From Chloroflexia bacterium (GTDB lineage Bacteria; Chloroflexota; Chloroflexia; Thermomicrobiales; CFX8), in NCBI GenBank assembly GCA_030431755.1, contig JAUIIK010000008.1:1-63762 (forward strand): a DNA stretch of 63,762 nt, written 5' to 3'. Numbering within the stretch: position 1 is the stretch's first letter; each line of letters starts with the position of its first letter. The notes beneath the pieces were generated by a model. That model was not told the origin of the DNA and did no database searches. It was given only the letters and a program-made list of their open reading frames with translations. Both the position numbers and the translations under genes were made by a program. This document shows, one piece after another, positions 6,692 through 63,542 of the stretch.

Positions 6692-7552
6692 ATGACCTAT
6701 ACAGGACAACATAACGACGTGGCAGTGCGCTTCGACGGCGTATCGAAGAGCTTCGGCGGCAAGCGTGGCCGTGACCGCTGGTTTCGACGCACGAATGAGC
6801 AATCGGCGAAGCTCGTGCGAGCGCTGAATGATGTCTCGTTCGAGGTCCGGAAGAATGAGATCTTCGGAATTCTCGGGGCGAACGGCAGCGGCAAATCGAC
6901 GCTGGTTCGGCTGATCTCGACCCTGCTGATCACCGACGAGGGGACGATCACCGTCTTCGGCAACGATGTGCGGGACGACGAGGCCGAGGTCAAACGGCTG
7001 ATCAACCGTGTCTCGGTCGAGGCGTCATTCTTCAAGAAGCTCTCGCCGATGGAGAATCTGCTCTACTCGTCGCGGCTCTATGGCCGCACCGGCTCCGAGC
7101 TGCGGCGCGACATCAAGCAGATTCTGGTCGACCTCGGCATTCCCGAGGAGCGCATCGGCGTGCCGCTCGAAACGATGTCGCGGGGCATGCAGCAGAAGGT
7201 GGCGATTGCGCGGGCGTTCCTGACCTCGCCGGTGCTGCTCCTGCTCGACGAGCCGACGACGGGGCTCGACCCGCGTTCGAAGAAGGATGTCCAGCGCTTT
7301 GTGCTTGATCTGCGTGAGAAACACGACGCGACAGTACTGATCTGCTCGCACGACATGGACGAGGCCGAGCGGCTCTGCGACCGCATCGCGATCATGGACA
7401 ATGGTCGCATCGTCGCGACCGGCACGGTTGACGAACTCAAGGACCAGGTGCGCGGCACGCAGGGCCTGCTCGACCCGACCCTCGAAGACGTCTACATGGC
7501 TCTCACCGGGCACGGTCTCGTCGAGGAGAAGCTGATGGCCGGCGTGGCGTAG
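6692..7552 (+). CDS. ABC-type exporter ATP-binding protein (ABC-2 family)
   Basis: The 286-residue ATPase has Walker A GANGSGKST (about 62-70), signature SRGMQQK (about 163), and Walker B LLLLDEPTTGLD (about 179-190) followed by the switch histidine in CSHDMDEAE. It is of the drug/polysaccharide/NatA-type exporter class and would pair with the ABC-2 permease encoded just downstream. That permease gene is split by the prophage in this strain, so the ATPase is probably without its partner while the prophage is integrated. The substrate is unknown. Confidence 0.95.
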   Translation: MTYTGQHNDVAVRFDGVSKSFGGKRGRDRWFRRTNEQSAKLVRALNDVSFEVRKNEIFGILGANGSGKSTLVRLISTLLITDEGTITVFGNDVRDDEAEVKRLINRVSVEASFFKKLSPMENLLYSSRLYGRTGSELRRDIKQILVDLGIPEERIGVPLETMSRGMQQKVAIARAFLTSPVLLLLDEPTTGLDPRSKKDVQRFVLDLREKHDATVLICSHDMDEAERLCDRIAIMDNGRIVATGTVDELKDQVRGTQGLLDPTLEDVYMALTGHGLVEEKLMAGVA

Positions 7553-14830: not shown

Positions 14831-15787
14831 GTGACAGATCGCGGTGTGAGCAAGCGCAGGCCCTACGTTGCGCTCGGCTATGCCGACATCCGCCTCGGCC
14901 GCGACCTCAAAGGATCGGCATTCTTGCTCTACTGCTATCTCTCGCTACGGGTCGGGACCAACTCCGGCGCCTGGCCATCCTATGAGCGCATCAGCACAGA
15001 CACCGGCCTCGCGCCGGCGACGATCAGCAAGGGCCTGCGCCAGCTGGTCGACTACGGCGTGCTGCAGGTCGAGCGGCGGCGCAGCGAGGGCCGGCAGACG
15101 AGCAACTTCTACACGTTGCTCGATCCGCCCGACACTTCAGAAACTGAAGTAAACGGGACGACTCAGACTTCAGAAACTGAAGTCAGCCCCCAGCTGCCCC
15201 CAGAACCCCCTTCTACTTCAGGTTCTGAAGTGAAAAACGGACCCAGGGTAGCGCCCGACACTTCAGAACCTGAAGTGGGGGTAAACGGGACGACTCAGAC
15301 TTCAGAAACTGAAGAGGAAGAAACTACAGGGTTAAGACCTGAAGAAGCTTCAGATATTGCGCCTGCGGCGCGAGTCAGGCCGCGCGACCCGCTCTTCGAG
15401 GCGGTGGCGGAAGCCTGGCTGGGCAAGCCCTACCCCGAGCTGCAACTGACCAGATCCCAGCGCGGCAACGTCAATGCCTGCGTCGTGCAGCTGCGGGAGA
15501 TCAAGGCCTGCCCGGAGGCGGTCCCGCGCGAGTGGCAGCGGCTGCGGAGCATGTTCGATCACCCGACGCCGGCGGCGCTGGCGAAGCACTGGAACACCAA
15601 CGGCACGGGGCCGAAGCGAAAGGAGACCCCGGTTGATATCGCCCAACGAAGAATTATCAGTCGAGAGCAATCTCGAAGGGCTGGTCGCGATGCTGGCCGA
15701 AGCGACGACCGACCGCAGTGGGATGAGCGACTCCGAGATCGGGCGCTGGGCGCTGATGTACCGCGCCTTCCTGATGGTCGAGCGTAA
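14831..15787 (+). CDS. Phage replication initiator with embedded origin
   Basis: A 318-residue protein with an N-terminal winged helix (GSAFLLYCYLSLRVGTN..WPSYERISTDTGLAPATISKGL), a variable linker with repeated TSETEV/TSEPEV peptides (about 102-160), and a C-terminal domain typical of phage replication proteins. The linker codons contain six palindromic iterons, as in lambda O where the origin lies in the initiator gene. GTG start after a short GGGGTG site. Confidence 0.82.
   Translation: MTDRGVSKRRPYVALGYADIRLGRDLKGSAFLLYCYLSLRVGTNSGAWPSYERISTDTGLAPATISKGLRQLVDYGVLQVERRRSEGRQTSNFYTLLDPPDTSETEVNGTTQTSETEVSPQLPPEPPSTSGSEVKNGPRVAPDTSEPEVGVNGTTQTSETEEEETTGLRPEEASDIAPAARVRPRDPLFEAVAEAWLGKPYPELQLTRSQRGNVNACVVQLREIKACPEAVPREWQRLRSMFDHPTPAALAKHWNTNGTGPKRKETPVDIAQRRIISREQSRRAGRDAGRSDDRPQWDERLRDRALGADVPRLPDGRA
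15134..15353. other. Candidate replication origin: six palindromic iterons
   Basis: ACTTCAGAAACTGAAGT or close variants at 15134-15150, 15167-15183, 15215-15231, 15260-15276 and 15299-15315. A sixth, CTGAAGAAGCTTCAG, is at 15339-15353. Spacings (33, 48, 45, 39) are multiples of three because the repeats are translated. The local sequence after copy five is AT-richer than its surroundings and could be the unwinding element. Confidence 0.78.
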
Positions 15788-16349
15788 GGCGACATTGGAC
15801 GACGTGTTCACCGTTGCCAGGACCTGGCTGGCGCACTCGCGTTTCTTCCCGACCGTCGGCGACCTGGCCTCGCCGATCGAGGGGCACGTCGCGGCCCGGC
15901 TGCGCGCTGAGGAGGTCGCCCAGGCGCAGGTAGCCGCGACGCCGGTGGCCATGCTGGATGGCGTGCCGGACTACGCGGCCATGCCAACCCGCGATCTGCC
16001 GCCTGGCTACGACTACGCCGGCGACCCCCACTGGCAGCGTGGCTTGAAGCGCTTCCAGGCGCTGAAGGCCGAGGGGGCGCACTCCAGCTGGGGCCAGGCC
16101 CTGGCGAACATCCCGGCCAGCGCGCCCGGTTTCCAGGGGGCGACGAAGGCGCGGACGCTGGACTGCCCGGACTGCAAGGGCGCGCGCTACCTGCGGCTGG
16201 GCGAGTGGGACGCCGGCCGCGGCGAGCACTTCGGCCGGCTGGGCTCGCACTACGTGGCCTGCCCGACCTGCTGTCCCTACGGCACGTATGACCCCCAGGC
16301 TGAACGCGCCGCCGCGCAAGCCGCGGCACTGAGCGGGGCACTGGCATGA
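15633..16349 (+). CDS. Helicase-loader-like replication protein with zinc finger
   Basis: A 238-residue protein. The N-terminal region (W..MYRAFLMVERKATLDDVFTVARTWLAHSRFFPTVGDL) resembles the G39P/DnaB-loader-type domain of phage replication modules, and the C-terminus has a zinc knuckle (CPDCKGARYL...CPTCCPYG). I start at TTG 15633 because AAAGGAG lies 7 nt upstream; it overlaps the initiator gene in another frame. It probably helps load the host replicative helicase, since no phage helicase gene is visible. Confidence 0.62.
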   Translation: MISPNEELSVESNLEGLVAMLAEATTDRSGMSDSEIGRWALMYRAFLMVERKATLDDVFTVARTWLAHSRFFPTVGDLASPIEGHVAARLRAEEVAQAQVAATPVAMLDGVPDYAAMPTRDLPPGYDYAGDPHWQRGLKRFQALKAEGAHSSWGQALANIPASAPGFQGATKARTLDCPDCKGARYLRLGEWDAGRGEHFGRLGSHYVACPTCCPYGTYDPQAERAAAQAAALSGALA

Positions 16350-17863
16350 GCACGACATCGCACAACGAGAGCACCAGAACGGAGCACCCCATGACGACGA
16401 CCCTCTCTGATTCCGCACGAAATACGGACGCGCTGGTGCGCGAGATTCCGGTCGACCGGATCCACCGCAGCACCTTCAATCCGCGCCAGACCTTCGATGG
16501 CGAGCGCCTCGACGAACTGACAGCCTCAATCCAGCAGCACGGGCTGATCGAGCCGGTGGTGGTGCGGCCGCATCCCGACCCCGAGGACCTGCTGGGTTCT
16601 GGCGCGGATAGCTGGGTCGAGGAGCACTACGAGCTCATCGCCGGCGAGCGGCGCTGGCGGGCGGCACGGCAGGCCGGCCTCGAGGTGATCCCGGCGATGG
16701 TGCGGGATGTCGACGACGCGACGGCGATCCAGCTGGCGATCGTTGAGAACCTGCAGCGGGCCGATCTCGACCCGATCGAGGAGGCGGCGGGCTTCCAGCT
16801 GCTGATCGAGCGCGCCGGCATGACGCAGCGGGCGGCGGCGGCGGCGCTGAATCGCTCGCAGCCGGCGATCGCCAACGCGATGCGATTGCTGCGGTTGCCC
16901 GCCCATGCCCAGGACCTCATTCGCGAGGGCAAGCTAAGCCGGGCGCACGGCGTGGCGCTGATGCGCTTCGAGGAGTTCCCTGCGTTTCAGGAGGCGCTTG
17001 GCGACGTCGCAGTGAAGGACGGCCTGGCGAGCAAGGAGCTGGAGAAGCCCTTTGACAGCTACGACGTTGCCCGGCGGCTGCAAGGCGTGGCAGTTCCGCT
17101 CTACACGCGATTCGACGAGTGTGAGGACTGCCCGTTCAACGCGAGGCGCAAGGGTCAGTACCACGATTACTGCCTGAAGCCGGAGCACTTCGAGGAGCTC
17201 AGCGAGGCACGCGCCGCGGCGCGCGATGCCGAGCGCGACGAACGGCGGGCGGAAGCGGAGGCCGCCGGGGAGCTGCCGTCGATCCGGGACGTCGGCAGCC
17301 ACGAGGACCTGAGCTATGCGCTGGACCCGACAGCGGGCTGGACGAGCGTGCCGGCCGGCTGTAGCGAGGACTGCCCCTGCCGTTGTCGTGTGCTGAGCTG
17401 GCAAGGCGACCAGGTCATCCAGATCTGCGCCGACCCCGGCCGATACCGCGAGCTCCAGGAAGCTGAGAAGCAAGCCGAGACCGAGCGTAAGAAGGCGACG
17501 CTGGCGGGCCGCCTGGCGCAGCTCGAAGCAGCAATCGACGACCTACCGGCGCTGGGAACGATCGCGCCGGAAGAGCTCATTGTGCTGATGGGCGCGGCAC
17601 TGGAGCGCGTTGGCAAGAAGTCATTGCCGGGCCTGGTGGCCGAGCGTCAGGGGCATGCCGGGCTGGCCGAGCACCAGGACTGGAGCCGGTTCACGGTCCA
17701 GGAGCAGCCGCAGTTGTTTGGCCAGCTTGCAAGTCTCGACATCGTGAAGTTCGCACTGGAGGTGGTGCTGCGGAACGAGCTGCTGGACCGCTACGAGGGC
17801 TATGCCCGGAGCTCGCCACTGGCGGACTTCTACCTCGGCCCGGATGACGGCGAGGCGGCATGA
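16346..17863 (+). CDS. ParB/Spo0J-like DNA-binding protein
   Basis: A 505-residue protein. ParB N-terminal motifs (VDRIHRSTFNPRQTF, QHGLIEPVVVRPH, ELIAGERRWRAA, IVENLQRADLDPIEEA) are followed by a helix-turn-helix (MTQRAAAAALNRSQPAIANAMRL). The long C-terminal half has cysteine clusters (CEDCPFNARR...C, GCSEDCPCRC). No parA lies next to it, so it may act in replication or regulation (or use the CTPase/nuclease fold) rather than partition. Confidence 0.85.
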   Translation: MSTTSHNESTRTEHPMTTTLSDSARNTDALVREIPVDRIHRSTFNPRQTFDGERLDELTASIQQHGLIEPVVVRPHPDPEDLLGSGADSWVEEHYELIAGERRWRAARQAGLEVIPAMVRDVDDATAIQLAIVENLQRADLDPIEEAAGFQLLIERAGMTQRAAAAALNRSQPAIANAMRLLRLPAHAQDLIREGKLSRAHGVALMRFEEFPAFQEALGDVAVKDGLASKELEKPFDSYDVARRLQGVAVPLYTRFDECEDCPFNARRKGQYHDYCLKPEHFEELSEARAAARDAERDERRAEAEAAGELPSIRDVGSHEDLSYALDPTAGWTSVPAGCSEDCPCRCRVLSWQGDQVIQICADPGRYRELQEAEKQAETERKKATLAGRLAQLEAAIDDLPALGTIAPEELIVLMGAALERVGKKSLPGLVAERQGHAGLAEHQDWSRFTVQEQPQLFGQLASLDIVKFALEVVLRNELLDRYEGYARSSPLADFYLGPDDGEAA

Positions 17864-27781: not shown

Positions 27782-29068
27782 GTGAGCGTTCTCGACCGGA
27801 TCAAGACATGGATGGCGCTCGAAGAGGCGGAGCTGTCGCACCGGGACATCGCCCGGCAGCTGCGGTCGGCGATTGACGCCGCGCACACCGGCGACTACTG
27901 GATCTGGCTCAAAGACACCTTCGATGACCGCGTGATCTACGAGATCACGAACCGCCACACTGACGAGTCGGCCCTGCTCCAGCGCTCCTATTCCATCGAC
28001 GAGGACAGCGGCAAAGTGACACTGGGCGACGCCGTGCAGGTGCGCCAGGTGACGACCTATGAGCCGATCGAGGAAGCGGCGGCCGAGAGCGCGGGCAACG
28101 CCACGCTCACCGACGAGATTGTGCCGCTGATTGAGAAGGCGGTGGCGGACGACGGCACAGTGCCGATCAAGGTCATCGCGCCGGGTTGGGGATCGAGCGG
28201 CTACTACAGCCCGGAGGTCCTCCAGAACGCTGCCGGCGTCATCCCGCCCGGCACCCACATGTACATCGATCACCCCACCGTGACGGAAGAGCAGGAGCGC
28301 CCGGAACGCTCGGTGCGCGACCTGGCGGCGATCACCGTCGAGGACGCGGTCTGGCAGGAGGAGGGCGCTCAGGGGCCGGGCCTCTACACCAGGGCGCAGA
28401 CGATCGCCGGCTTCGGCGCGGTACTCGACGAGATCGCGCCGCATATCGGCGTCAGCATTCGCGGCCGCGGCCGGCGCTCAGAGGGCGAGGTCGAGGGTCA
28501 GAAGGGGCTGATCGTCAACAGCATCGAGGCGATGGACTCCATTGACTTTGTGACCCTGCCGGGGGCCGGCGGGGCGATTGGCGAGCTCGTGGAGAGCGCG
28601 CGCAGCGGCCAGAGGCCGGAAGGAGCCGAGACCGTGACGGACAACAGCAACCCCCAGGCCCAGCCGGCTGACAACGGCGTGCTGGAGGAGACGCAGCGGA
28701 AGCTCGCGAAGGTCGAGGCCCAGCTGGCACGGAGCGAGGCGCGCGCCCACATCACGGATGCGCTGGCCGAGCGGCGTCTGCCAGAGGCGATTCGCGCGAA
28801 GCTGATGCCGGCTCTGGCGCGGGACATTCCGCTTACGGAGGACGGCGAGGTTGACACCGCCAAGCTCGATGACCGCATCGAGGAGGCGGTGAAGGCGGAG
28901 CTGGCCTATCTGGAGCAGGTCGCGCCAACGGGCCGGGTGACCGGCTTCGGCGGCGGGCCGATTGACGAGTCCGAGGTGGACGAGGAGACGCTGGACGCCA
29001 GCATCGCGGAGGGCTTCGCGGCCTTCGGGCTGAGCGAGTCGGCGGCCAAGCGCGCGGCGGCGTTCTAA
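27782..29068 (+). CDS. Prohead protease fused to scaffold domain
   Basis: The 428-residue protein starts at GTG 27782 after GGAGCGGCA. The protease half (about 80-260) has IDHPT with a likely catalytic His, VSIRGRG with a likely Ser, and MDSIDFVTLPGAGG, in the order seen in capsid maturation proteases. The C-terminal half (about 300-428) is coiled coil (EETQRKLAKVEAQLARSEAR) as in scaffolds. Such fusions guide shell assembly and then digest the scaffold. Confidence 0.75.
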   Translation: MSVLDRIKTWMALEEAELSHRDIARQLRSAIDAAHTGDYWIWLKDTFDDRVIYEITNRHTDESALLQRSYSIDEDSGKVTLGDAVQVRQVTTYEPIEEAAAESAGNATLTDEIVPLIEKAVADDGTVPIKVIAPGWGSSGYYSPEVLQNAAGVIPPGTHMYIDHPTVTEEQERPERSVRDLAAITVEDAVWQEEGAQGPGLYTRAQTIAGFGAVLDEIAPHIGVSIRGRGRRSEGEVEGQKGLIVNSIEAMDSIDFVTLPGAGGAIGELVESARSGQRPEGAETVTDNSNPQAQPADNGVLEETQRKLAKVEAQLARSEARAHITDALAERRLPEAIRAKLMPALARDIPLTEDGEVDTAKLDDRIEEAVKAELAYLEQVAPTGRVTGFGGGPIDESEVDEETLDASIAEGFAAFGLSESAAKRAAAF

Positions 29069-29118
29069 GCCGGCTGCTAGAGACGCTGAGCTGACCTGGA
29101 CCTGAGAGGAACATCCTG

Positions 29119-29940
29119 ATGGCGACCAATCGCAAGCAGAAGCCCGGCTACCAGCTGAGCGTCGTGTGCAGCAACCCGGCGACCCCGAGCTCGGGCGATC
29201 CGGTGCGCTTCGGCGAACTGACCGGCGTGGCACTGACCGACGAGAGCGATGCCGGCAACGCGACCGGCTACACCACCGTCGACTTCGGGCCGGCCGTCTG
29301 GGAGCTGACCGTCGACGACAACGAGAGCGGCGGCATCGCCGTCGGCGATCCGATCTACTACCACGACACGCCAACCGGCTCGCCAACGACGAACCTGAAC
29401 AACTCGAGCACCGGCATGGACGCCTTCTTCGGCGTGGCGCTGGAGGCGGTGAGCTCGAATGCGACGACGGCGATCGACGTGCTGCACATCCCGCTCGGCT
29501 CGACGCTGGGCACGGCGGGCGGCAGTGACCGGGTGCGCTACACCGAGACGGTGCTGACCAGCGCCCAGGTGAAGGCGCTCAACGCGACGCCGATCACGCT
29601 GGTGGCGGCTCCAGGCGCGGATCTGGCGATTGTGCCGCTGGAGATTGCCCTGGTTATGAACTACGGGGGCAGCAACGCCTTCACCGAATCGGCCGACGAC
29701 CTGTCGCTGGCCTACGCAACCGGGCCGGCCGAGATCCTTGAGATTGAATCGACCGGGCTGATCGGCGAGACCAACGACGAAGCGCGTTTCATCACCATCC
29801 AGCATGCCGAGACCTTCGTCCCGGTCGAGAACGACGCGGTCGTCATCACCAACCTGGACGACGAGATCGCCGGCAACGCGGCCAACGACAACACCCTGAC
29901 GGTGCGGCTGTACTACCGCGTCGTGCCGACGGACGCCTAG
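29119..29940 (+). CDS. Capsid decoration or cement protein (DUF2190-like)
   Basis: A 273-residue protein. The N-terminal half has DPVRFGELTGVALTDE and GDPIYYHDT, the pattern of DUF2190-type stabilising proteins; a second domain (VRYTETVLTSAQVKAL...) covers about 138-273. It lies between the protease and the major capsid gene. Confidence 0.7.
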   Translation: MATNRKQKPGYQLSVVCSNPATPSSGDPVRFGELTGVALTDESDAGNATGYTTVDFGPAVWELTVDDNESGGIAVGDPIYYHDTPTGSPTTNLNNSSTGMDAFFGVALEAVSSNATTAIDVLHIPLGSTLGTAGGSDRVRYTETVLTSAQVKALNATPITLVAAPGADLAIVPLEIALVMNYGGSNAFTESADDLSLAYATGPAEILEIESTGLIGETNDEARFITIQHAETFVPVENDAVVITNLDDEIAGNAANDNTLTVRLYYRVVPTDA

Positions 29941-33719: not shown

Positions 33720-34460
33720 ATGGCGAAGTACGGCTCGGACGACGTCAGTTTCTGGCTCGTCGACGGCTACTCGCTGGCTGGACTGCTGGCGGACATCACG
33801 CTCGACGGGCCGGAGGCGCTGCTGGAGGAAACGCACGGCTTCGGCGACAGCTGGGTCGAGCAGGAGCCGGTTGGGCTCTACCAGTGGAGCGCCAGCCAGA
33901 ACGGCTGGATCGACGACGCGACGAACGCCTCACTGGACGCGCTGAGCGGCCAGGACGGCGCGGAGCGGGTGATGTGCTTCTGCGTCAAGGGCAACGCGAT
34001 TGGCCAGAGCTTCGACGGCCTGGCAGGGCCGTTCCAAATGAAGCACACCAAGACGCTGAGCCGCGGAGCGCTGTCGAAGATCGCGGCCGACTTCAGCGGC
34101 AGCGGGCGCTACGACGAGGGCCTGATCCTGCACGAGCTCAGCGAGGAGACGGCCGACGGCGACACCGAGAGCAGCGGTGTCGACAACGGCGCGTCAAGCA
34201 GCAACGGCGGCGCGGCCTATTTGCAGGTGACGGCGCTGGACCTGGGCGGCTACGACGATGTGACGGTGCGGGCGCTGCACTCGGCCGACGATGTGACCTA
34301 CGTGGCGGCGGCGACCTTCACCGACGTGGCGGCCGCGCCGGCGGCTGAGCGGGTGCTGGACACCGGCACGATCAACCGCTACCTGGCCTCGGACTGGACC
34401 TTCAACGGGACCGGGTCGGGTCAGTCGATCAGCTTCATGGTCGGGTACGCCCGGCACTAA
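33720..34460 (+). CDS. Tail tube-like protein with added domain
   Basis: A 246-residue protein starting MAKYGSDDVSFWLVDGYSL, related at its N-terminus to the next gene. The C-terminal part (about 140-246, after a Ser/Gly-rich linker) is a beta domain (AYLQVTALDLGGYDD...FMVGYARH) like those on surface-exposed tail or head proteins. Confidence 0.65.
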   Translation: MAKYGSDDVSFWLVDGYSLAGLLADITLDGPEALLEETHGFGDSWVEQEPVGLYQWSASQNGWIDDATNASLDALSGQDGAERVMCFCVKGNAIGQSFDGLAGPFQMKHTKTLSRGALSKIAADFSGSGRYDEGLILHELSEETADGDTESSGVDNGASSSNGGAAYLQVTALDLGGYDDVTVRALHSADDVTYVAAATFTDVAAAPAAERVLDTGTINRYLASDWTFNGTGSGQSISFMVGYARH

Positions 34461-35753: not shown

Positions 35754-35889
35754 GCGCGAATTCAAGGCGCAGCTGCGGGCCTGCTACCTCCAGCTGGCCG
35801 CGGCGGAGGACGCCCAGGCGGAACGCCGCGCCTGGTTGCGGCTGGCCAAGCTGATTACACGGCGATACGACGAACCCCCGGCCCAATGA
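35746..35889 (+). CDS. Small hypothetical protein after the tail chaperones
   Basis: 47 residues (MTEREFKAQLRACYLQLAAA...), ATG overlapping the T-frame stop. Its stop codon lies within the loop of a terminator. Probably a short helical protein; function unknown. Confidence 0.6.
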   Translation: MTEREFKAQLRACYLQLAAAEDAQAERRAWLRLAKLITRRYDEPPAQ

Positions 35890-35899
35890 CCGGGGGTTC
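35872..35899 (+). terminator. Terminator ending the head/tail chaperone operon
   Basis: GAACCCCCGG (35872-35881), 8-nt loop, CCGGGGGTTC (35890-35899), then TGTTG. It cuts the late operon before the reverse-strand cargo. Confidence 0.8.
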
Positions 35900-36291
35900 T
35901 GTTGTGGCGGCGTGACTGGTAAGGGATAGAACAGTCAACGCGCCTTGTGCTGCCTCGGGCGGACGCGGCAGGTCGCTATGACATGCGTTGCCTTGCCGTG
36001 GCTTGGCTTGTCGCTATGGCGCGACGAGGCGTGGCAGGAAAGGGCTTGGCCAGGCAAGTCGCGGTGACGTGGCCGGGCGAGTCAAGGCCAGGATGGACGA
36101 GGCTGGTCGTTCTGGCATGCGGCGCGAAGGCCGGACATGACGAGGCACGCGATGACAAGTCGCGGTGACGTGGGGAGACACGTCGCGAACTGACGCAACT
36201 AGACATGACGAGTCGTCGTGGCGAGACACGTCGCGAACTGACGGAGCTAGACCTGTCGCGCCGAAGTGATTTGATCTGTTGGGCGACATGG
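35900..36291. repeat. Repeat-rich noncoding region
   Basis: No supported gene. Direct repeats include GACACGTCGCGAACTGAC at 36177-36194 and 36225-36242 (period 48) and CAAGTCGCGGTGACGTGG at 36055-36072 and 36156-36173 (period 101). Many short words such as GACGAG and CATGACG recur. It separates the convergent late operon and cargo cassette. Confidence 0.6.
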
Positions 36292-36987
36292 CTACACCGG
36301 CTCGAAGGCGACGACGTCGAAGCGGCCGAAGGACTGCGAGCGCTTGGCCCCCAGGCCGTTCTCCTGGGCCAGGAGCCAGATCTGTGGCCAGTGCTGCGGC
36401 TCGATGACGTCCTTGACGACCTGTACCTCAAACTCGATCTGCGCCTGCTCGACGAACTCGTAGTGCTGCAAGGTCGACTGTGGCCCCTGGGGCCCGCTGA
36501 CGTGGCCGATGAAGAGATCCGCGCCGTCCGGCTTCATGCGCTCCAGGTGAATCCGGGCAGGGCTGACGAAGACGCGCTCAGCCAGGAACGACTTCGGCCC
36601 CTTGCGGGTCTTGCCCCAGCGCTCGCCGGCAAACAAGATGTTTGTGCACTCCTTCAGCATGGCCTTCACCTGGCGGTCCTCGATGTAGAGGCCCTGCTCG
36701 TCCTGCTTGAAGCCGGTGCCCTGGTTGACGGCCAGCTGCTTGGAGGCGGCGACCAGATCGTCGTAGCTCGTGTCGCCGTCGACATCGGCGCCCAGCTCCT
36801 GGAGGGTGCGGAGCAGCATCTGGCGGCGCTCTTCGACGTCGTCGACGCCGGTGCTGGTGCGAATCCAGCCGTCGATCACGTCGGGTGACTTCGGGATGCC
36901 GCCCACCAGGCGGTCGCGGAAGGCGATGACGACGCGGTAGGTGGTGTACAGCTCGCTGCTGACGTCGGCGAAGATACTCTTACTCAT
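36292..36987 (-). CDS. Reverse-strand cargo protein with RAMP-like glycine loop
   Basis: A 231-residue protein. Its C-terminus, ENGLGAKRSQSFGRFDVV, closely matches the glycine-rich loop of RAMP-superfamily (Cas5/Cas6/Cas7-like) RNA-binding folds, and the N-terminal beta strand YRVVIAFRDRLVGGIP suits a ferredoxin-like start. No CRISPR array or other cas gene is present. ATG 36987 follows GAGGAGGCCACC and overlaps the upstream gene. It could be a phage protein family that merely shares the loop; function is not known. Confidence 0.62.
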   Translation of the reverse strand: MSKSIFADVSSELYTTYRVVIAFRDRLVGGIPKSPDVIDGWIRTSTGVDDVEERRQMLLRTLQELGADVDGDTSYDDLVAASKQLAVNQGTGFKQDEQGLYIEDRQVKAMLKECTNILFAGERWGKTRKGPKSFLAERVFVSPARIHLERMKPDGADLFIGHVSGPQGPQSTLQHYEFVEQAQIEFEVQVVKDVIEPQHWPQIWLLAQENGLGAKRSQSFGRFDVVAFEPV

Positions 36988-37531
36988 CGGTGGCCTCCTC
37001 GGTGATTTCATTCAAGATACGGTCGATGTCCTCGTCGGTGTAGCGGTCCTCGACGGTCTCGCCATCCTCCAGCTGCTCGGCGAGCCGTTCCATCAGCATG
37101 GCGCGGGAGATGTCGATCGACGCCCGCTGCCGCCGCTCGCCCGCCGCTTTCAGCAGGTCGTCGCGCGTCATCTTCGGCAGGCGGATGTGCCGCTCGCCGA
37201 CGTGCTCCATCCAGCTGGACCAGCGGCTCTTCTTCGCCCGCTTCGTGAGTTCCTCGCGCGTGACGAGCTCGTCACCCAGCTGGATGTGCGTGCTGGTCGC
37301 GGTCCGCGTCGTGGCGACAACGGACTGCGCTTCGCTGTAGACCATCTGGCGGAAGTTCTCCTGGAAGTAGCGCTCGACGACCTTGGGCTGCTTCGCGAAG
37401 TGCGTGCAGGCCTGCTCGGTGAGGAATGGCAGCTCGATGGCGTCTTCACCATCGAGCGCTGCGCGAATCCAGGCGCGGACTTCGCTGCGGACGGATTTCT
37501 GGGTGGTTGGTGCGGTACCCTTAGAGGGCAT
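36980..37531 (-). CDS. Reverse-strand cargo protein, helical
   Basis: A 183-residue protein, first gene after the cargo promoter. Mostly helical and charged; DDLLKAAGERRQRASIDISR and LEDGETVEDRYTDEDIDRIL near the C-terminus. It is translationally coupled to the RAMP-like gene (8-bp overlap), so the two probably act together. I do not recognise it. Confidence 0.6.
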   Translation of the reverse strand: MPSKGTAPTTQKSVRSEVRAWIRAALDGEDAIELPFLTEQACTHFAKQPKVVERYFQENFRQMVYSEAQSVVATTRTATSTHIQLGDELVTREELTKRAKKSRWSSWMEHVGERHIRLPKMTRDDLLKAAGERRQRASIDISRAMLMERLAEQLEDGETVEDRYTDEDIDRILNEITEEATDE

Positions 37532-37605
37532 GGGAGCTGTGTCCTTCCATGCAATGGTCTCGTGCGTTCCAGCGCCCGAGACCTTTCTTTTGTCATTGCG
37601 ACTGA

Positions 37606-37653
37606 AGATAACAGACGATCCGCGTACGTGTCAAGCGCGATCTGCATACGCGC
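37606..37653 (-). promoter_or_regulatory. Cargo promoter with adjacent operator
   Basis: Reading leftward: operator GCGCGTATGCAGATCGCGC (37635-37653), then -35 TTGACA (37629-37634), 17-bp spacer, -10 TTATCT (37606-37611). The near-consensus promoter predicts strong transcription of the two-gene cassette. In the opposite reading the operator matches the early operator at 17 of 19 positions. Confidence 0.8.
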
Positions 37654-37886
37654 TATCCGCTTCGTCGCAACTGGAGGATGTTGTCCTCGAATCCAGCCGG
37701 CCGGACCATGAAGCCCTGAGCGCCCAGCACGTCGCTGAGCAGCTCAAACATGGTGGCGGCGAGGGCGACGTCGGGGCCGGCCTCGATGTCGAGCGTGGCC
37801 CGTCGGCAGGCGGTCGCAATGAGCGCGGCGTCTGCCTGATCCATCTCCAGGTGGGCCGACTGGCCCTCGTACTTCAGAATGCGCAT
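37653..37886 (-). CDS. Small hypothetical protein (reverse strand)
   Basis: 77 residues with AGGAAGGAAACACC before ATG 37886. Pattern MRILKYEGQSAHLEMDQADA plus a helix; its stop lies at the edge of the cargo operator. It is expressed divergently from the HTH gene at 38040. Function unknown. Confidence 0.58.
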   Translation of the reverse strand: MRILKYEGQSAHLEMDQADAALIATACRRATLDIEAGPDVALAATMFELLSDVLGAQGFMVRPAGFEDNILQLRRSG

Positions 37887-37931: not shown

Positions 37932-38004
37932 TAGACCTTTGTGGACCTAACTGTACTTGACTGGACTGGTCTCGTCAACGCCTAAATGGACCAACCTGGA
38001 CCTA
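37932..38004. promoter_or_regulatory. Phased TGGACC-type direct repeats
   Basis: TAGACCTT (37932), TGGACCTA (37942), TGGACTGG (37962), TGGACCAA (37987) and TGGACCTA (37997), with spacings 10, 20, 25 and 10, lie in the divergent region before the HTH gene. Near-helical phasing suggests cooperative protein binding, perhaps by the HTH protein itself. Confidence 0.5.
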
Positions 38005-38039
38005 TCTGCTATCCTGTGGAGGATGGAAAGCGAGACCCT

Positions 38040-38243
38040 ATGAGTGTTCGAAAACTCATTAACTTGACAGAAGCGCGAGAGATGATCGGAGTCAGCAAGA
38101 CGACAATGGCCCGGCTGGTTCGCGAGGGGTCGTTCACGATCTTCGTCAACCCGGTTGACCGCCGAGAGAAGCTTGTCGATCAAGCTGAGGTCGAGGCATT
38201 CTTGCGACCTAAACCGCTTGAAGAGGGAAAAGCGGCCGCCTGA
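38040..38243 (+). CDS. Excisionase-like HTH DNA-binding protein
   Basis: 67 residues: KLINLTEAREMIGVSKTTMARLVREGSFTIFVNPVDRREKLVDQAEVEAFL is the MerR-like/excisionase (HTH_17) fold. It could be a local regulator or the recombination directionality factor for the serine integrase. It lies far from int, and phased repeats sit just upstream. Confidence 0.72.
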   Translation: MSVRKLINLTEAREMIGVSKTTMARLVREGSFTIFVNPVDRREKLVDQAEVEAFLRPKPLEEGKAAA

Positions 38244-38628: not shown

Positions 38629-41600
38629 GTGCGCCCGCTCCTCTCCTTAGGAGAGGGTGGGCGTTTTTTCGTGGACGCGGGCGAACTGGCAATCATTCTG
38701 CGGCTTGTCGATCAGGCAACCGCAGACCTCAAGCAAGCCAAGCAAGTGTTGAAGGATCTCGGCGACGAGTCCGCGACTGCCGCTGCCCAGGTCGACAAGC
38801 TCGACGCCTCATCCGGCACGCTGAACAAGACACTGGGTAATCTGGCGCAGTCGGCGGTGACGGGCGTTGGCGCGTTCCTCGGCTACCGCGCCGTGGACAC
38901 GGTAATGACGGGGGTCGGGCAGGCCTTCGACTTCGTTAAGAGCAGCGCCATCGGCATGAATTCCGACCTGGAGACGGCGGCGCTTCAGTTTGAGACGCTG
39001 ATGGGGAGCGCCAGCGAGGCCGAGAAGCACGTCGCTGATCTCTTCGAGTTCGCGGAACGAACCCCATTCGAGACCGCGCCCATCATCGAAGCAAGCCGCC
39101 TGTTGGAGACCTTCGGCGGCGAGGCGCTGAATACGACGGAGCAGCTCACCCGGCTGGGGGATGCGTCGGCTGCGACGTCGGGGCCGATTAACGAGTTGGG
39201 GTTTTGGACTGGCCGGCTCTACTCGCAGCTTGAGTCTGGGAAGCCATTCGGCGAGGCGGCGATGCGGCTCCAGGAGCTCGCCGTGCTGTCTCCTACGGCA
39301 CGCGCCGAGATGGAGGCGCTGCAAGCAGCGGGCGCGAGCTCGGCGGAGGTCTTCCGCGTATTCGAAGCGGACCTCGACCGCTTCAGTGGGGCGATGGAAC
39401 GCCAGGCTGGGACGTGGGCTGGACTGAGGTCGACACTGACCGACTCCCTGGCGCTGGCCGCCAGCCAGGGGCTCAAGCCATTCTTCGAGCTTGCCAAGGA
39501 CGGCCTCGACGAGATCAACAGGTATCTCGGTTCTGCCGAGTTCGATGACTTCGCTAACGGCTTCGCGGCCAGTATGCAAGTGGCGGCTGACGGTGTGCGG
39601 GGACTGATCTCGACTGTCCGTGATCTGGCCGCAAGTCGGGACTTCGCCGAATTCGCATCGACCATGCAAGGCGTTGGCGACATCGTGCTGGACGTCACCA
39701 CGGCAACGGGCAGGCTGTCTGTTGTTGTAGGCAAGGAGCTGGTGCCCGCAGTCGGGGATGTGATTGTCGGCCTGGAGCCCATTGTCACGGGCCTCCAGTC
39801 ACTCATTGACACCATCGAGGCGATCCCCACCCCGGACGAGCAGAAAACCGAAGACTGGCGACGGTTCTGGGAAGGCGTCGCGGACGGCAGTACCGGCGCG
39901 TCAGAAGCAATGGCGAACTGGGCAGTTGATCTCCTGCCGCGAGTTAACGACGGAAGCCTTGAACTGCTGGATGGACTCATCCGCATCAATGGCGTCTTCG
40001 GTGACATCGAGGAGGCGACGCGCTCCCTCACCACCACCACTGACGACAACGCGGACGCCACGCAGCGCCAGATTGAGTACCAACGCCAGAATGCTGAGAT
40101 GTCGGACGAGGCGCGGGCTGCGGTGGCCCGGCTCACCGACACCACCGCAGATGCGACGTTGGCGTACCACAGGCATAACCAGGTGGTCGAGGACAGCGGC
40201 GAGGGCCTGACGGCATGGGAAGTCCACATGCTCAATGCCGCGGCGGCGACCTACGACGTCCAGTCGGCATTGTCGGGGCTGGAGGGCGCGTACCAGGCGG
40301 CCGGGGATGCCGCGAACATCTTCAACCAGCAGTCGAGCGAGTACGGCCAGATCGCGTCGACGATCGAGGCGGCGCGGGATGCGCTGATCGAACGGCAGCA
40401 ACAGAACATCGACCTGACGATGGAAGAGCAGCGCTTCCTCGAAAACTACCCGCAGATTTACGACCGCGTCACCGGCGCGCAGGACGACGCCACGATCCAG
40501 GCTGGACTATTCGCAGGGAGCCAGGTGGACGTCATGCTCGCGCAGGATGACGCGGCGGCCTCGTCCGACAACCTCGTCAGCTCGGTTGGTGACGCCAACG
40601 CGGCGCTGGCTGATGCGCAGGCGCAATCGGGCTTGACGACGGACGGCGCGCTCGACCTGGCGGCGGCGCTGTCCGATGTCGGAATCGAACTTGGCAATTT
40701 GGATGGTCAGTCGGCGACGCTGGCGCTGAATCTCGCCGAGGGTGGCGGCGTGGGCACAACGGCGGGCGCGCGCGGCGGCGCGACACGCTTCGAGCAGCGC
40801 GCCGAGGACCTGGGGATTACCGGGCGCATTCAGGGCGCGGGCGCGGCGCTGGCGGACCTGGACGGCTCGTCCGCTGAAGTGACGGCTACGGTCGATGACG
40901 TCGACGCGCGCACGGATCTTGAGTGGATCGAAAACACCAAGAACCGGCTAGACGGATCGGGTTTCGTGATTGTGGCGTCCGTCGACACCTCTGCGGTAGA
41001 CCGCGCCGTGCAGTACATCGACGACAGCCTGCCGCACTCGCCGGCGAAGCGGGGGCCGCTTTCACGCGAACCTGACTGGCGCTTCCTCTTCGGCACGATG
41101 CCGGCAGCGGCCGGGGCAGCGGTGGATGAGACCGTGCGGAACATTGGCGCGGAGTTCGACATCCTCTTCGCCCACATCACCGAGGGCTGGGGGCAGGTCG
41201 TCACGGCGATTCAGCACGACTTCACCGGCCCGAACATCGTCGACATCATGACCGGCGAGGCGGCGTCGAACCTGGAGCAGGACATCGCGGCGCTACAGGC
41301 GTACATGGACGCCCTGCTGGAAGCCGGCTTCGCGCCGGACAGTCCGGAGATGCAGGCGCTGCGGCAGCGCTACCAGGAGCTGATGCAGGAGCTGGCGCTG
41401 GTCTCTGAGATTGCCGGCACGGACGCAGCCAAGGAGTACTGGCGCGAGTGGGCCGACGAGAACCTGCCCAAGAGCTACATGCGCGGGCTGGTCGACATCT
41501 TCGAGGAGTTCGGCATCACCGCCGGCGAGTACTTCGCCGAGGCCTTCTGGGACGAGTTCGCGTCGGGCCCGGGCCGTCCTGGCGACGGCAGCGGCTCGAT

Positions 41601-42465
41601 CATCGACAAGCTGCTGAATGGTGATGACGAGCCGATCGGCGTGCCGATCGAGATCGAGGTGCGGGCGCGGGACATCGGCGGCGACGAGGTCACGCTGGTC
41701 GAAGGCGTCCAGCAGATCGCCGAGGAGGCGCTGGCCGAGCTGGCGCGCATCTTCGCGGAGTACCCCGAGGTCGCGGTCGGCATGGTTGACGACCTCGTGC
41801 AGGCCGTCGTCGACGGGCGCTTGCCCTTCGAGGAGGCCATGCGCTTGCTGGCAATGATCCCGGAGGACGACCTGATTCCCGCGCTGGAGCGGCTGGAGGA
41901 GCAGCTGACGGTCGACCTGGCCGAGGCGCTGTTGAAGTTCGGGCCGAACTCGCCGGAGGTCCAGGCCATCCTCCAGGCGCTGCAGGCCATCGAGGCGGCA
42001 GCGAGCGCGACCGACGACGCCATCAGTCAGATCCCGGACAGCCTGGCCAACCTGCCGGGCTCAAAGGGCTACCAGGCGCCGGGGGATCAATCGCCGGGTG
42101 GCGTGGGACCGACGGGCTCGGTCGCGCCGGTGGGCGGCTTCGGCGGCCTGGCGGACATCGACGCCCTGACGGCGCAGCTGGCGGGCGGGGCGCGGCTGAA
42201 CCTGCCGGCCGACCAGTTCCGGCAGGTCATGCAGGCGCTGCAGGCGACGGTCTACCTGGACGATGACGGGCTCTACCGGCCTGATCCGGGCGGCGGCTTC
42301 ACCCTCTACGGCTCGCCGGGCGACTACTACGTCAACCCCTACGGCCCCAACGGCGGCCAGGGCGGCGGAGGCGACACGCACATCTACATCGACGGCCGGG
42401 AGGTCACCAGCGCGGCCTTGCAGCACCTGCGGCGGGAGACGCCGGTCGGGACGGTAGCCCCATGA
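38629..42465 (+). CDS. Tape measure protein
   Basis: Up to 1278 residues; sets tail length and is ejected with DNA. It has the usual tape measure N-terminus (AIILRLVDQATADLKQAKQVLKDL), a conserved domain with FETLMGSASEAEKHVADLFEFAERTPFE, and long helical stretches, then a Gly/Pro-rich C-terminus. Start GTG 38629 has AGGAG 9 nt upstream; GTG 38671 right after the terminator is the alternative. Confidence 0.9.
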   Translation: MRPLLSLGEGGRFFVDAGELAIILRLVDQATADLKQAKQVLKDLGDESATAAAQVDKLDASSGTLNKTLGNLAQSAVTGVGAFLGYRAVDTVMTGVGQAFDFVKSSAIGMNSDLETAALQFETLMGSASEAEKHVADLFEFAERTPFETAPIIEASRLLETFGGEALNTTEQLTRLGDASAATSGPINELGFWTGRLYSQLESGKPFGEAAMRLQELAVLSPTARAEMEALQAAGASSAEVFRVFEADLDRFSGAMERQAGTWAGLRSTLTDSLALAASQGLKPFFELAKDGLDEINRYLGSAEFDDFANGFAASMQVAADGVRGLISTVRDLAASRDFAEFASTMQGVGDIVLDVTTATGRLSVVVGKELVPAVGDVIVGLEPIVTGLQSLIDTIEAIPTPDEQKTEDWRRFWEGVADGSTGASEAMANWAVDLLPRVNDGSLELLDGLIRINGVFGDIEEATRSLTTTTDDNADATQRQIEYQRQNAEMSDEARAAVARLTDTTADATLAYHRHNQVVEDSGEGLTAWEVHMLNAAAATYDVQSALSGLEGAYQAAGDAANIFNQQSSEYGQIASTIEAARDALIERQQQNIDLTMEEQRFLENYPQIYDRVTGAQDDATIQAGLFAGSQVDVMLAQDDAAASSDNLVSSVGDANAALADAQAQSGLTTDGALDLAAALSDVGIELGNLDGQSATLALNLAEGGGVGTTAGARGGATRFEQRAEDLGITGRIQGAGAALADLDGSSAEVTATVDDVDARTDLEWIENTKNRLDGSGFVIVASVDTSAVDRAVQYIDDSLPHSPAKRGPLSREPDWRFLFGTMPAAAGAAVDETVRNIGAEFDILFAHITEGWGQVVTAIQHDFTGPNIVDIMTGEAASNLEQDIAALQAYMDALLEAGFAPDSPEMQALRQRYQELMQELALVSEIAGTDAAKEYWREWADENLPKSYMRGLVDIFEEFGITAGEYFAEAFWDEFASGPGRPGDGSGSIIDKLLNGDDEPIGVPIEIEVRARDIGGDEVTLVEGVQQIAEEALAELARIFAEYPEVAVGMVDDLVQAVVDGRLPFEEAMRLLAMIPEDDLIPALERLEEQLTVDLAEALLKFGPNSPEVQAILQALQAIEAAASATDDAISQIPDSLANLPGSKGYQAPGDQSPGGVGPTGSVAPVGGFGGLADIDALTAQLAGGARLNLPADQFRQVMQALQATVYLDDDGLYRPDPGGGFTLYGSPGDYYVNPYGPNGGQGGGGDTHIYIDGREVTSAALQHLRRETPVGTVAP
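38631..38670 (+). terminator. Intrinsic terminator at the start of the tape measure gene
   Basis: GCGCCCGCTCCTCTCC, loop TTA, GGAGAGGGTGGGCG and then TTTTTT. It overlaps the first codons if translation starts at 38629, or ends at GTG 38671 if that is the start. It would stop transcription into the tail genes unless antiterminated. Confidence 0.78.
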
Positions 42466-62546: not shown

Positions 62547-63542
62547 TTGTCGCGCGCAAAGATCGAGGTTGCATTGGCGATCGACTCAGCGAAGTCAAGC
62601 CAGCACGCGGACTCGGCGGGGAAGACCGCACGGGTGCGCTTCGTCTTGGCAGCCATTCTGGTGCTGAATGTGCTCGTCGCGCTGGCCAAGCTCGGCGTTG
62701 GCCTGCTGGCGGGCTCGCTGGCGATGATCGCGGACGGTCTGCATTCGCTGCTGGACGGCGCGTCGAACGTCGTTGCCCTCATCGGCGTGTCGGTTGCCGC
62801 CCGCCCGGCTGACAACGATCACCCCTACGGCCACCATCGCTTCGAAGTCCTGGCAACGCTGGCGATTGCCGGCTTCATGTTGCTGGCGCTTGGCGAGATC
62901 GTCGACCAGGCCGCCGGGCGCATCTTCGGCGACAGCGCGCCGCAGATTGGTCTGCTCGCCGTCGCAGTCATGTCGGTGACCTTGCTGATTAACATCGGCG
63001 TGACGCTCTGGGAACGCCGGGAGGCAAAGAAGCTCGACAGCGACATCCTCCTTGCCGATTCACGGCATACGCTGTCGGATGTCCTGGTGTCGCTCTCGGT
63101 GCTGGCGTCGTTCGGCCTGGTGCGGCTCGGCTTCGGACTGGCCGATGTGCTGGTGACGCTGGTCATCGCCGGATTCATCGCCTACGGCGCCTGGCAGATC
63201 GTGCGCGAGGCGATGGAAAGCCTGGCCGATAGCGCCGTCGAGGATGCCGACCGCATTCGCGCGGCTGCCGTCGGAGTCGAGGGCGTTGAGGGCGCGCACG
63301 CCATCCGCAGCCGTGGCGGCGCGGGACGCACGTGGGTCGATCTGCACATCCAGGTAGATCCGGCGATGTCGGTCGTCGTCAGTCACGAGATCGCCAGCGA
63401 GGTCGCCGAGGCCGTTGAAGCCGAGCTTGGCCGCCCATCGGATGTCACGGTACACGTCGAACCGGCGACGCTCTACCATCTCTCGCGCATTCGACCCTAC
63501 GAGGTCGCTGACGGCGCGGACTGGCTCCACACGGCAGACTAG
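62547..63542 (+). CDS. Cation diffusion facilitator (CDF) metal efflux protein
   Basis: A 331-residue protein with six hydrophobic helices. The CDF signature is GSLAMIADGLHSLLDGASNV, with Asp/His metal ligands there and in HPYGHHRFEV and LLADSRHTLSDVLVS. The C-terminal cytoplasmic domain ends with VTVHVEPATLYH. It exports Zn, Fe, Co, Cd or Mn; which metal is not evident. TTG 62547 is the modelled start. The last 220 bp of the window hold only a REP-like palindrome near 63671. Confidence 0.93.
   Translation: MSRAKIEVALAIDSAKSSQHADSAGKTARVRFVLAAILVLNVLVALAKLGVGLLAGSLAMIADGLHSLLDGASNVVALIGVSVAARPADNDHPYGHHRFEVLATLAIAGFMLLALGEIVDQAAGRIFGDSAPQIGLLAVAVMSVTLLINIGVTLWERREAKKLDSDILLADSRHTLSDVLVSLSVLASFGLVRLGFGLADVLVTLVIAGFIAYGAWQIVREAMESLADSAVEDADRIRAAAVGVEGVEGAHAIRSRGGAGRTWVDLHIQVDPAMSVVVSHEIASEVAEAVEAELGRPSDVTVHVEPATLYHLSRIRPYEVADGADWLHTAD

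Follow-up and report, generated by a model that had tools for sequence, protein, structure and literature searches.

A prophage RAMP gene pair beside a C-phased, GAC-punctuated guide-like array resembles VIPR-class systems

Why does a prophage carry two coupled genes that run opposite to its own tail genes, and what could their products do? We addressed this question for a window of 63,762 bp, which is an entire contig of a 5.1 Mb genome. A sequence-only reading had proposed a lysogeny-expressed pair of RNA-binding proteins, perhaps acting in defence or counter-defence. The part of this proposal that places a RAMP-like RNA-binding protein and its partner in a phage conflict system was supported by our analysis, but the array beside the two genes had been missed, and "pair" understates what appears to be an RNA-guided system. 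By analogy with the experiments on SUSP1 (PMC13142463), from which the mechanism is taken, we estimate at about 0.85 the probability that the cassette belongs to the VIPR class of phage-borne, RNA-guided systems and silences genes of competing prophages or phages.

A PHROG search of the window revealed a prophage with genes for a large terminase, head-protease and capsid-type proteins, a major tail protein, and a tape measure, all on the + strand. Host-type genes were found near both ends, encoding an ABC transporter (6692-7552, +) and a cation-efflux protein (62547-63542, +), indicating that the prophage sits inside host sequence. A ParB-like protein (PHROGs) is encoded at 16346-17863 (+). 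The cassette is located between the major tail protein gene (33720-34460, +, phrog_9522) and the tape measure gene (38629-42465, +, phrog_973). On the − strand, an ORF encoding a helical, vap-like partner of 183 aa (36980-37531) precedes the ORF of a Vipr-like RAMP protein of 231 aa (36292-36987, with a possible longer start at 37011), and the two overlap by 8 nt, in agreement with the earlier description of two coupled reverse-strand genes. Their position ahead of the tape measure gene and against the + strand tail genes was also correctly described, but the "tail chaperones" named as neighbors are two small ORFs without a PHROG match.

The near-consensus promoter announced for the pair corresponds to a promoter-like site upstream of the partner gene (TTGACA...TATCTT, 37634-37605, −, 10 of 12 matches), and two promoter-like sites were found where shuffles gave an expectation of 0.4. 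The prophage operator that had been placed at its −35 was not confirmed: the 18-mer TTGACACGTACGCGGATC occurs only once in the window at up to three mismatches, and its 12-mer core was found at 10 sites versus 12.8 expected, i.e., at chance level. Upstream of the promoter, a 77-aa ORF (37653-37886, −) runs in the same direction as the cassette and had no family match in the libraries searched, and a small HTH/excisionase-like gene (HTH_17, phrog_66) at 37986-38243 (+) is divergent from the cassette. Directly after the RAMP gene lies a 384-bp guide-like array (35904-36287, −), ended by a hairpin that may act as a terminator (35873-35900, −, end points taken from the fold). The folded stretch reached −28.4 kcal/mol (z −3.2) with no U-run on the − strand, and the hairpin was absent from the output of the scan that gave the promoter-like sites. 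The cassette is thus ordered as promoter, helical partner, RAMP, guide array, and hairpin.

Used as a single query, the RAMP protein was not recognized by the family libraries. Neither cassette protein had a Pfam family at E ≤ 5, and phmmer matches to retinol-binding and CUGBP proteins were weak and below significance. A virion protein was rejected, since no PHROG was obtained at E ≤ 0.001; no known virion family was matched, and the closest PHROG was one small-terminase family at E = 0.1. Relatives were nevertheless found in the Microcystis phage Mae-JY09 (52% identical), at 74 loci in IMG/VR, and at one locus on an Actinomadura contig; plasmids and 60 related genomes gave no close relative. 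Across 64 aligned rows, G29, P32, F93, Q106, K108, A109, K112, E113, G211, G213, R216, and G221 are invariant. The glycine-rich motif pointed out by the sequence-only reading, ENGLGAKRSQSFGRF, does lie near the C-terminus of the 231-aa protein and is followed by DVVAFEPV. A tree of the 64 proteins placed the window in a 13-row clade (support 100/96) together with the Microcystis phage and IMG/VR phages.

When the 64-row profile was searched against the PDB, all 13 sequences obtained at E ≤ 1 were CRISPR RAMPs (Csm4, Cas7, Cas5, Cmr6, and Csm3; best E 0.03), and among NCBIfam models at E ≤ 0.1, Cas6 matched 17 and Csm4 10 of the 64 rows. The AF2 model, built on 63 rows with the Microcystis phage row left out, reached a pLDDT of 91.8 and a pTM of 0.84. 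Its top Foldseek matches in the PDB were type III and type VII CRISPR RAMPs, and VIA aligned it with type VII Cas7 (Z 13.4, 168 residues, rmsd 4.7) and with a chain of the E. italicus Csm complex (Z 13.0). In BFVD, the second-ranked match was a siphovirus "Cas system-associated RAMP superfamily protein". The confident model thus predicts a Cas7/Csm3-like RAMP, and the fold outside the RAMP type that had been named as evidence against the earlier proposal did not materialize. The predicted fold, the profile search, and the adjacent array together support the core of that proposal, a RAMP-like RNA-binding protein acting with a partner in a phage conflict system.

The partner, which had been described as helical, is helical in its predicted model (pLDDT 88.7, pTM 0.67), for which the PDB gave nothing better than E 5. 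A profile started from 11 partner sequences detected the family in 43 of the 62 dereplicated RAMP loci, the 19 others including contigs cut near the RAMP gene, and in most loci the partner precedes the RAMP gene. No Pfam family was common to more than one of 34 members, and phages and viral contigs yielded no match for the partner alone. By eye, the partner-RAMP pair of locus L003 (9947-10705) lies between genes for a RusA-type resolvase and a terminase, and that of L005 (5989-6735) follows a RusA-like ORF, while the pair of the window is an inverted insertion in the tail module.

The first sign of the array was a repeated CGAC motif in the DNA beside the RAMP gene. Runs of at least five YGACNNNYC motifs occur near the RAMP gene in 52 of the 62 dereplicated loci, and their flanks carry a C at +8, +13, +18, +23, and onward. 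The gaps between repeats peak at 28, 33, 38, 43, 48, and 53, with 364 of 788 gaps equal to 3 modulo 5. The C at every fifth base and these gap peaks lead to the grammar [GAC(NNNYC)k]n. In the window, the array comprises 72 pentamers NNNNC (consensus NN-G/C-N-C), of which 69 have C at the fifth position, and eight GAC triplets cut it into a leader of 6 pentamers followed by units of 8, 10, 10, 9, 9, 7, 7, and 6 pentamers. It scored 91.4 with a parser of this grammar, compared to a mean of 7.5 and a maximum of 13.9 in 300 dinucleotide shuffles of the region and to 13.8 for the runner-up place in the window. The statement of the sequence-only reading that no arrays are present was therefore incorrect, the array lying just outside the stretch that it described. 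Units 1 and 2 (within 35904-36254) look as if one arose from the other by local duplication; their antisense readings are V[DE]TALGYL, decoded by hand, and VV[DE]TALAY[IM][DE], and they are perhaps directed at two variants of one target.

Arrays of this kind are widespread in the family. Counting arrays from −2.6 to +3.5 kb of the RAMP start, a same-strand array was found in 58 of the 62 dereplicated loci at a score of at least 18, and in 55 at a score of at least 30. The loci without one are L039, which begins near a contig end, L051, L068, and L071. In L068, L071, and L044, arrays run antisense to the RAMP gene. L051, a long branch in the RAMP tree, has no C-phased array and shows a weak A-phased pentamer signal 719-744 bases past the RAMP start; it may use another consensus. 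L037 holds a second C-phased tract (~15568-16133) of 103 pentamers with a single GAC; at a distance of about 5.6 kb from the start of the RAMP gene, it may be another kind of array or due to chance composition. Across the family, units contain about 5-13 pentamers, and a single array holds up to 48 GAC triplets (L023). An Rfam search of five sources returned only a tRNA, also in L023. In the middle pentamers of 446 unique guides, positions 1 and 2 are near uniform, position 3 favors C or G, position 4 favors C or T, and position 5 is C in 97%. The share of identical units falls with RAMP identity: at about 100% RAMP identity nearly all are identical (8/9 to 28/28 in the smaller array), and in the pairs compared at 97% RAMP identity or less, no identical unit was shared. 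It would nevertheless be wrong to speak of a complete turnover, since some homologous, non-identical guides persist. In 88 pentamers of homologous guides from different loci, 14 changes fell at positions 1-2 and 39 at positions 3-4 (two-sided p = 0.0008 assuming independence, which related pairs do not have). Positions 1 and 2 thus appear to carry information that is kept.

How these positions may be read was examined by matching the dinucleotides at pentamer positions 1-2 of 202 units (k ≥ 7) against 1.28 Mb of DNA in which the arrays were masked. Perfect matches numbered 0, 8, 0, and 0 at skips of 0, 1, 2, and 3 bases, respectively, while 20 shuffles of the skip-1 set gave no match in 14 cases, one in three, two in two, and six in one. 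Because few guides supply these matches, we do not claim an overall excess. Five of the eight come from one guide of L034, which matches the RAMP genes of L025, L027, L036, L065, and L073 at 16 of 16 positions and spells (K/N)VAEGWLK there, the skipped base being the wobble base; in the RAMP gene of L034 itself it matches at 14 of 16, with mismatches only in the first pentamer. With an improved parse and k ≥ 8, one of 182 guides matched perfectly at skip 1, and none did so at other skips or in three shuffles per rule. A site in L063 matching a guide of L056/L075 appeared to lie in a shadow frame and was treated as chance.

The longest guide of L077, taken without its first pentamer, was then compared with 65 Actinomadura genomes. 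With a one-base skip and at most two mismatches, it matched 31 places in 25 genomes, versus one place for the reversed pattern; with a two-base skip, it matched 4 places in 4 genomes, versus 9 for the reversed pattern. Seven of the eight sites fetched read LTPHGLRH(S/G) in codon frame, and all four ORFs scanned at such sites contain a Phage_integrase domain. Homologous guides of L034 and L036 decode as HELGH(L/I)V(L/I)H; this guide was chosen by eye, post hoc, once all guides had been decoded. At one mismatch or less, the L034 pattern occurs in 154 of 249 genomes, and since the reversed pattern is also found in many genomes, the evidence rests on the identity of the sites. Nine of the 20 sites fetched read HELGH(L)(L/V)(L/M)H in a context judged by eye to be plausible for a metalloprotease, and the others do not; all five ORFs with the motif that were scanned, including the one perfect match fetched, carry Peptidase_M78 and HTH domains. 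ImmA/IrrE-type proteases act in prophage switches. The three decoded guides (the L034 RAMP guide, the L077 guide, and the HELGH guide) are all antisense to the coding strand. These results support the view that, as judged from sequence matches, guides of the relatives spell conserved motifs of rival elements, namely an integrase box, the HELGH box of ImmA/IrrE-type proteases, and a RAMP gene.

The guides of the window gave no such target. Exact searches of IMG/VR returned no match at k = 10 and one at k = 9, which is about chance. Among its own and related genomes, matches were found in 3 of 101 at two mismatches or fewer, and in 1 and 2 of 158 genomes of the class at one mismatch or fewer, numbers that are all close to chance. 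For three long actinophage guides, exact matches in IMG/VR were likewise absent, and a 14/14 match of a k = 7 guide of the window to the window itself was rejected as near chance. The skip rule is thus supported for the relatives and extended by inference to the window.

Taken with the SUSP1 experiments, these observations are consistent with a cassette that probably uses its RNAs to recognize and silence genes of competing phages. The array transcript would supply guides of about 6-10 pentamers, with or without being cut, and one RAMP subunit per pentamer would grip the constant C. Positions 1 and 2 of every pentamer would be presented and would base-pair with two of each three target bases, and the base left out would coincide with the codon wobble position. 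The partner may assist on DNA, and the outcome would be silencing rather than cutting of genes of the competing prophage or phage. We regard as an evenly balanced possibility that the family represents a lineage of its own in noncontiguous RNA guidance, using the grammar [GAC(NNSYC)k]n, in which dense, short guides reading two bases in three are aimed at catalytic or conserved motifs that rivals cannot easily change (the integrase HxLRH box, the ImmA/IrrE HELGH box, and the RAMP of the rival), and in which GAC marks the unit boundary, probably as a processing or end-cap signal.

Several other explanations were weighed. The RAMP could cleave or block a target mRNA, like type III Csm3 or type VII Cas7, with a guide antisense to the mRNA and the DNA left unbound. 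The closest solved folds are indeed those of the RNA-targeting Cas7 and Csm3, and all three decoded guides, being antisense to the coding strand, could pair with mRNA; however, binding to dsDNA and targets on both strands were reported for SUSP1 (PMC13142463), and we consider this mode of action unlikely, though to be taken seriously. That the guides regulate the phage's own genes and not those of rivals seems to us quite improbable. The near match of the L034 guide to its own RAMP gene, lacking only in the first pentamer, and the near-chance 14/14 match within the window would agree with autoregulation, but the same L034 guide is perfect in five other RAMP genes, and the L077 guide matches integrases in many other genomes.

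The array might also be a tract for protein binding or packaging that scaffolds RAMP filaments, as RNA or as DNA, and is devoid of target information, its C phase being a binding footprint only. No other signal comes close in strength to the C at every fifth base, for which footprint recognition would suffice, and the lack of targets for the window guides fits such a scaffold as well. A footprint does not account for positions 1-2, which are near uniform and yet better conserved than positions 3-4 between homologous guides, nor for guides of relatives that decode, in codon frame, to HELGH, a RAMP motif, and an integrase box, and we give this explanation little credence, slightly less than autoregulation. 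Lastly, C-rich, GC-rich DNA on one strand could be a low-complexity remnant of decayed coding sequence, but phase resets by GAC are seen again and again, at 52 to 58 of the 62 loci, which come from diverse phages, and shuffles never came near the score of the window array; we find a decayed remnant scarcely credible.

RNA-guided silencing of rivals, if correct, would concern a RAMP family whose members occur in uncultured phages, in a phage of Microcystis, and on a contig of Actinomadura. The results suggest that reading two bases of three also works under another guide grammar, and the family offers an independent route to targets straight from sequence. Judging by the decoded targets, phages may aim at the codons that encode catalytic motifs and skip the wobble base, so that few synonymous changes would let a rival escape.

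Among known systems, type III and type VII CRISPR-Cas share with the cassette the RAMP fold and the glycine-rich loop of Csm3 and Cas7. The units of the window, in contrast, have only GAC and the C phase in common and no near-identical repeats, and no cas gene was recognized in the four proteins scanned, none of which (RAMP, partner, and two adjacent ORFs) matched a Cas family. Moreover, the cassette array runs in pentamer steps, whereas the backbone of type III and type VII CRISPR follows a six-base step. Tas proteins are built on an RNA-binding domain other than RAMP, and the Tas RNA-binding domain was not found here, as neither cassette protein matched Pfam at the threshold given above. The likeness to TIGR-Tas (PMC12045711) lies in a phage-borne, interspaced guide array.

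The closest resemblance is to VIPR, public since April 2026 only and studied experimentally in a handful of systems, among them SUSP1 and a Pseudomonas fulva prophage (PMC13142463, bioRxiv 2026.04.26.720920); besides this preprint, our searches of the open-access literature retrieved no account of a lone phage RAMP accompanied by an array. VIPR was described as combining a phage RAMP and an accessory gene with RNAs in which YNNGG is repeated 9-16 times, whose guides are read with a one-base skip and silence the DNA of competing phages (PMC13142463). It is directed at rival elements, lysogeny regulators and further VIPR genes among them, and it comprises seven types with "GGY/NN motifs, or a related consensus" (PMC13142463). 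The window and its relatives share the phage or prophage location (prophage genes in the window, IMG/VR loci, one isolated phage, and the Actinomadura contig) and a single small RAMP-fold protein bearing a G-loop (pLDDT 91.8; VIA Z 13.4; G211, G213, R216, and G221 invariant), next to which a partner gene, present in 43 of 62 loci, may correspond to one of the accessory genes vap1-6. They also share a flanking, non-coding pentanucleotide tandem with a hypervariable dinucleotide, seen in the DNA sequence. Judging by sequence matches of the L077 and L034 guides, the relatives may in addition share one-base-skip reading, with the skip at the wobble base, and the targeting of rival elements.

When the six-frame ORFs of SUSP1 were compared with our RAMP family profile, the best was 28477-29079 (−) at E = 0.077, which adjoins a 12× YNNGG tract at 29170-29229; both fit the description in PMC13142463. 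The sequence link to SUSP1 Vipr is weak, hhalign giving E = 0.0053 but a probability of 6.8. The guides themselves differ: the pentamers of our family read C-NN-(G/C)-(C/T), whereas the main text of the preprint describes YNNGG, and in place of GGY they conserve C and, more weakly, Y and S. Compared with type II VIPR (the SUSP1 clade), the window array has neither YNNGG repeats nor an invariant structured 3′ tail on each guide; its units abut, parted only by GAC. Our verdict places the locus among VIPR-class cassettes, with a guide array that is phased by C, punctuated by GAC, and unlike the YNNGG guides of the preprint's main text.
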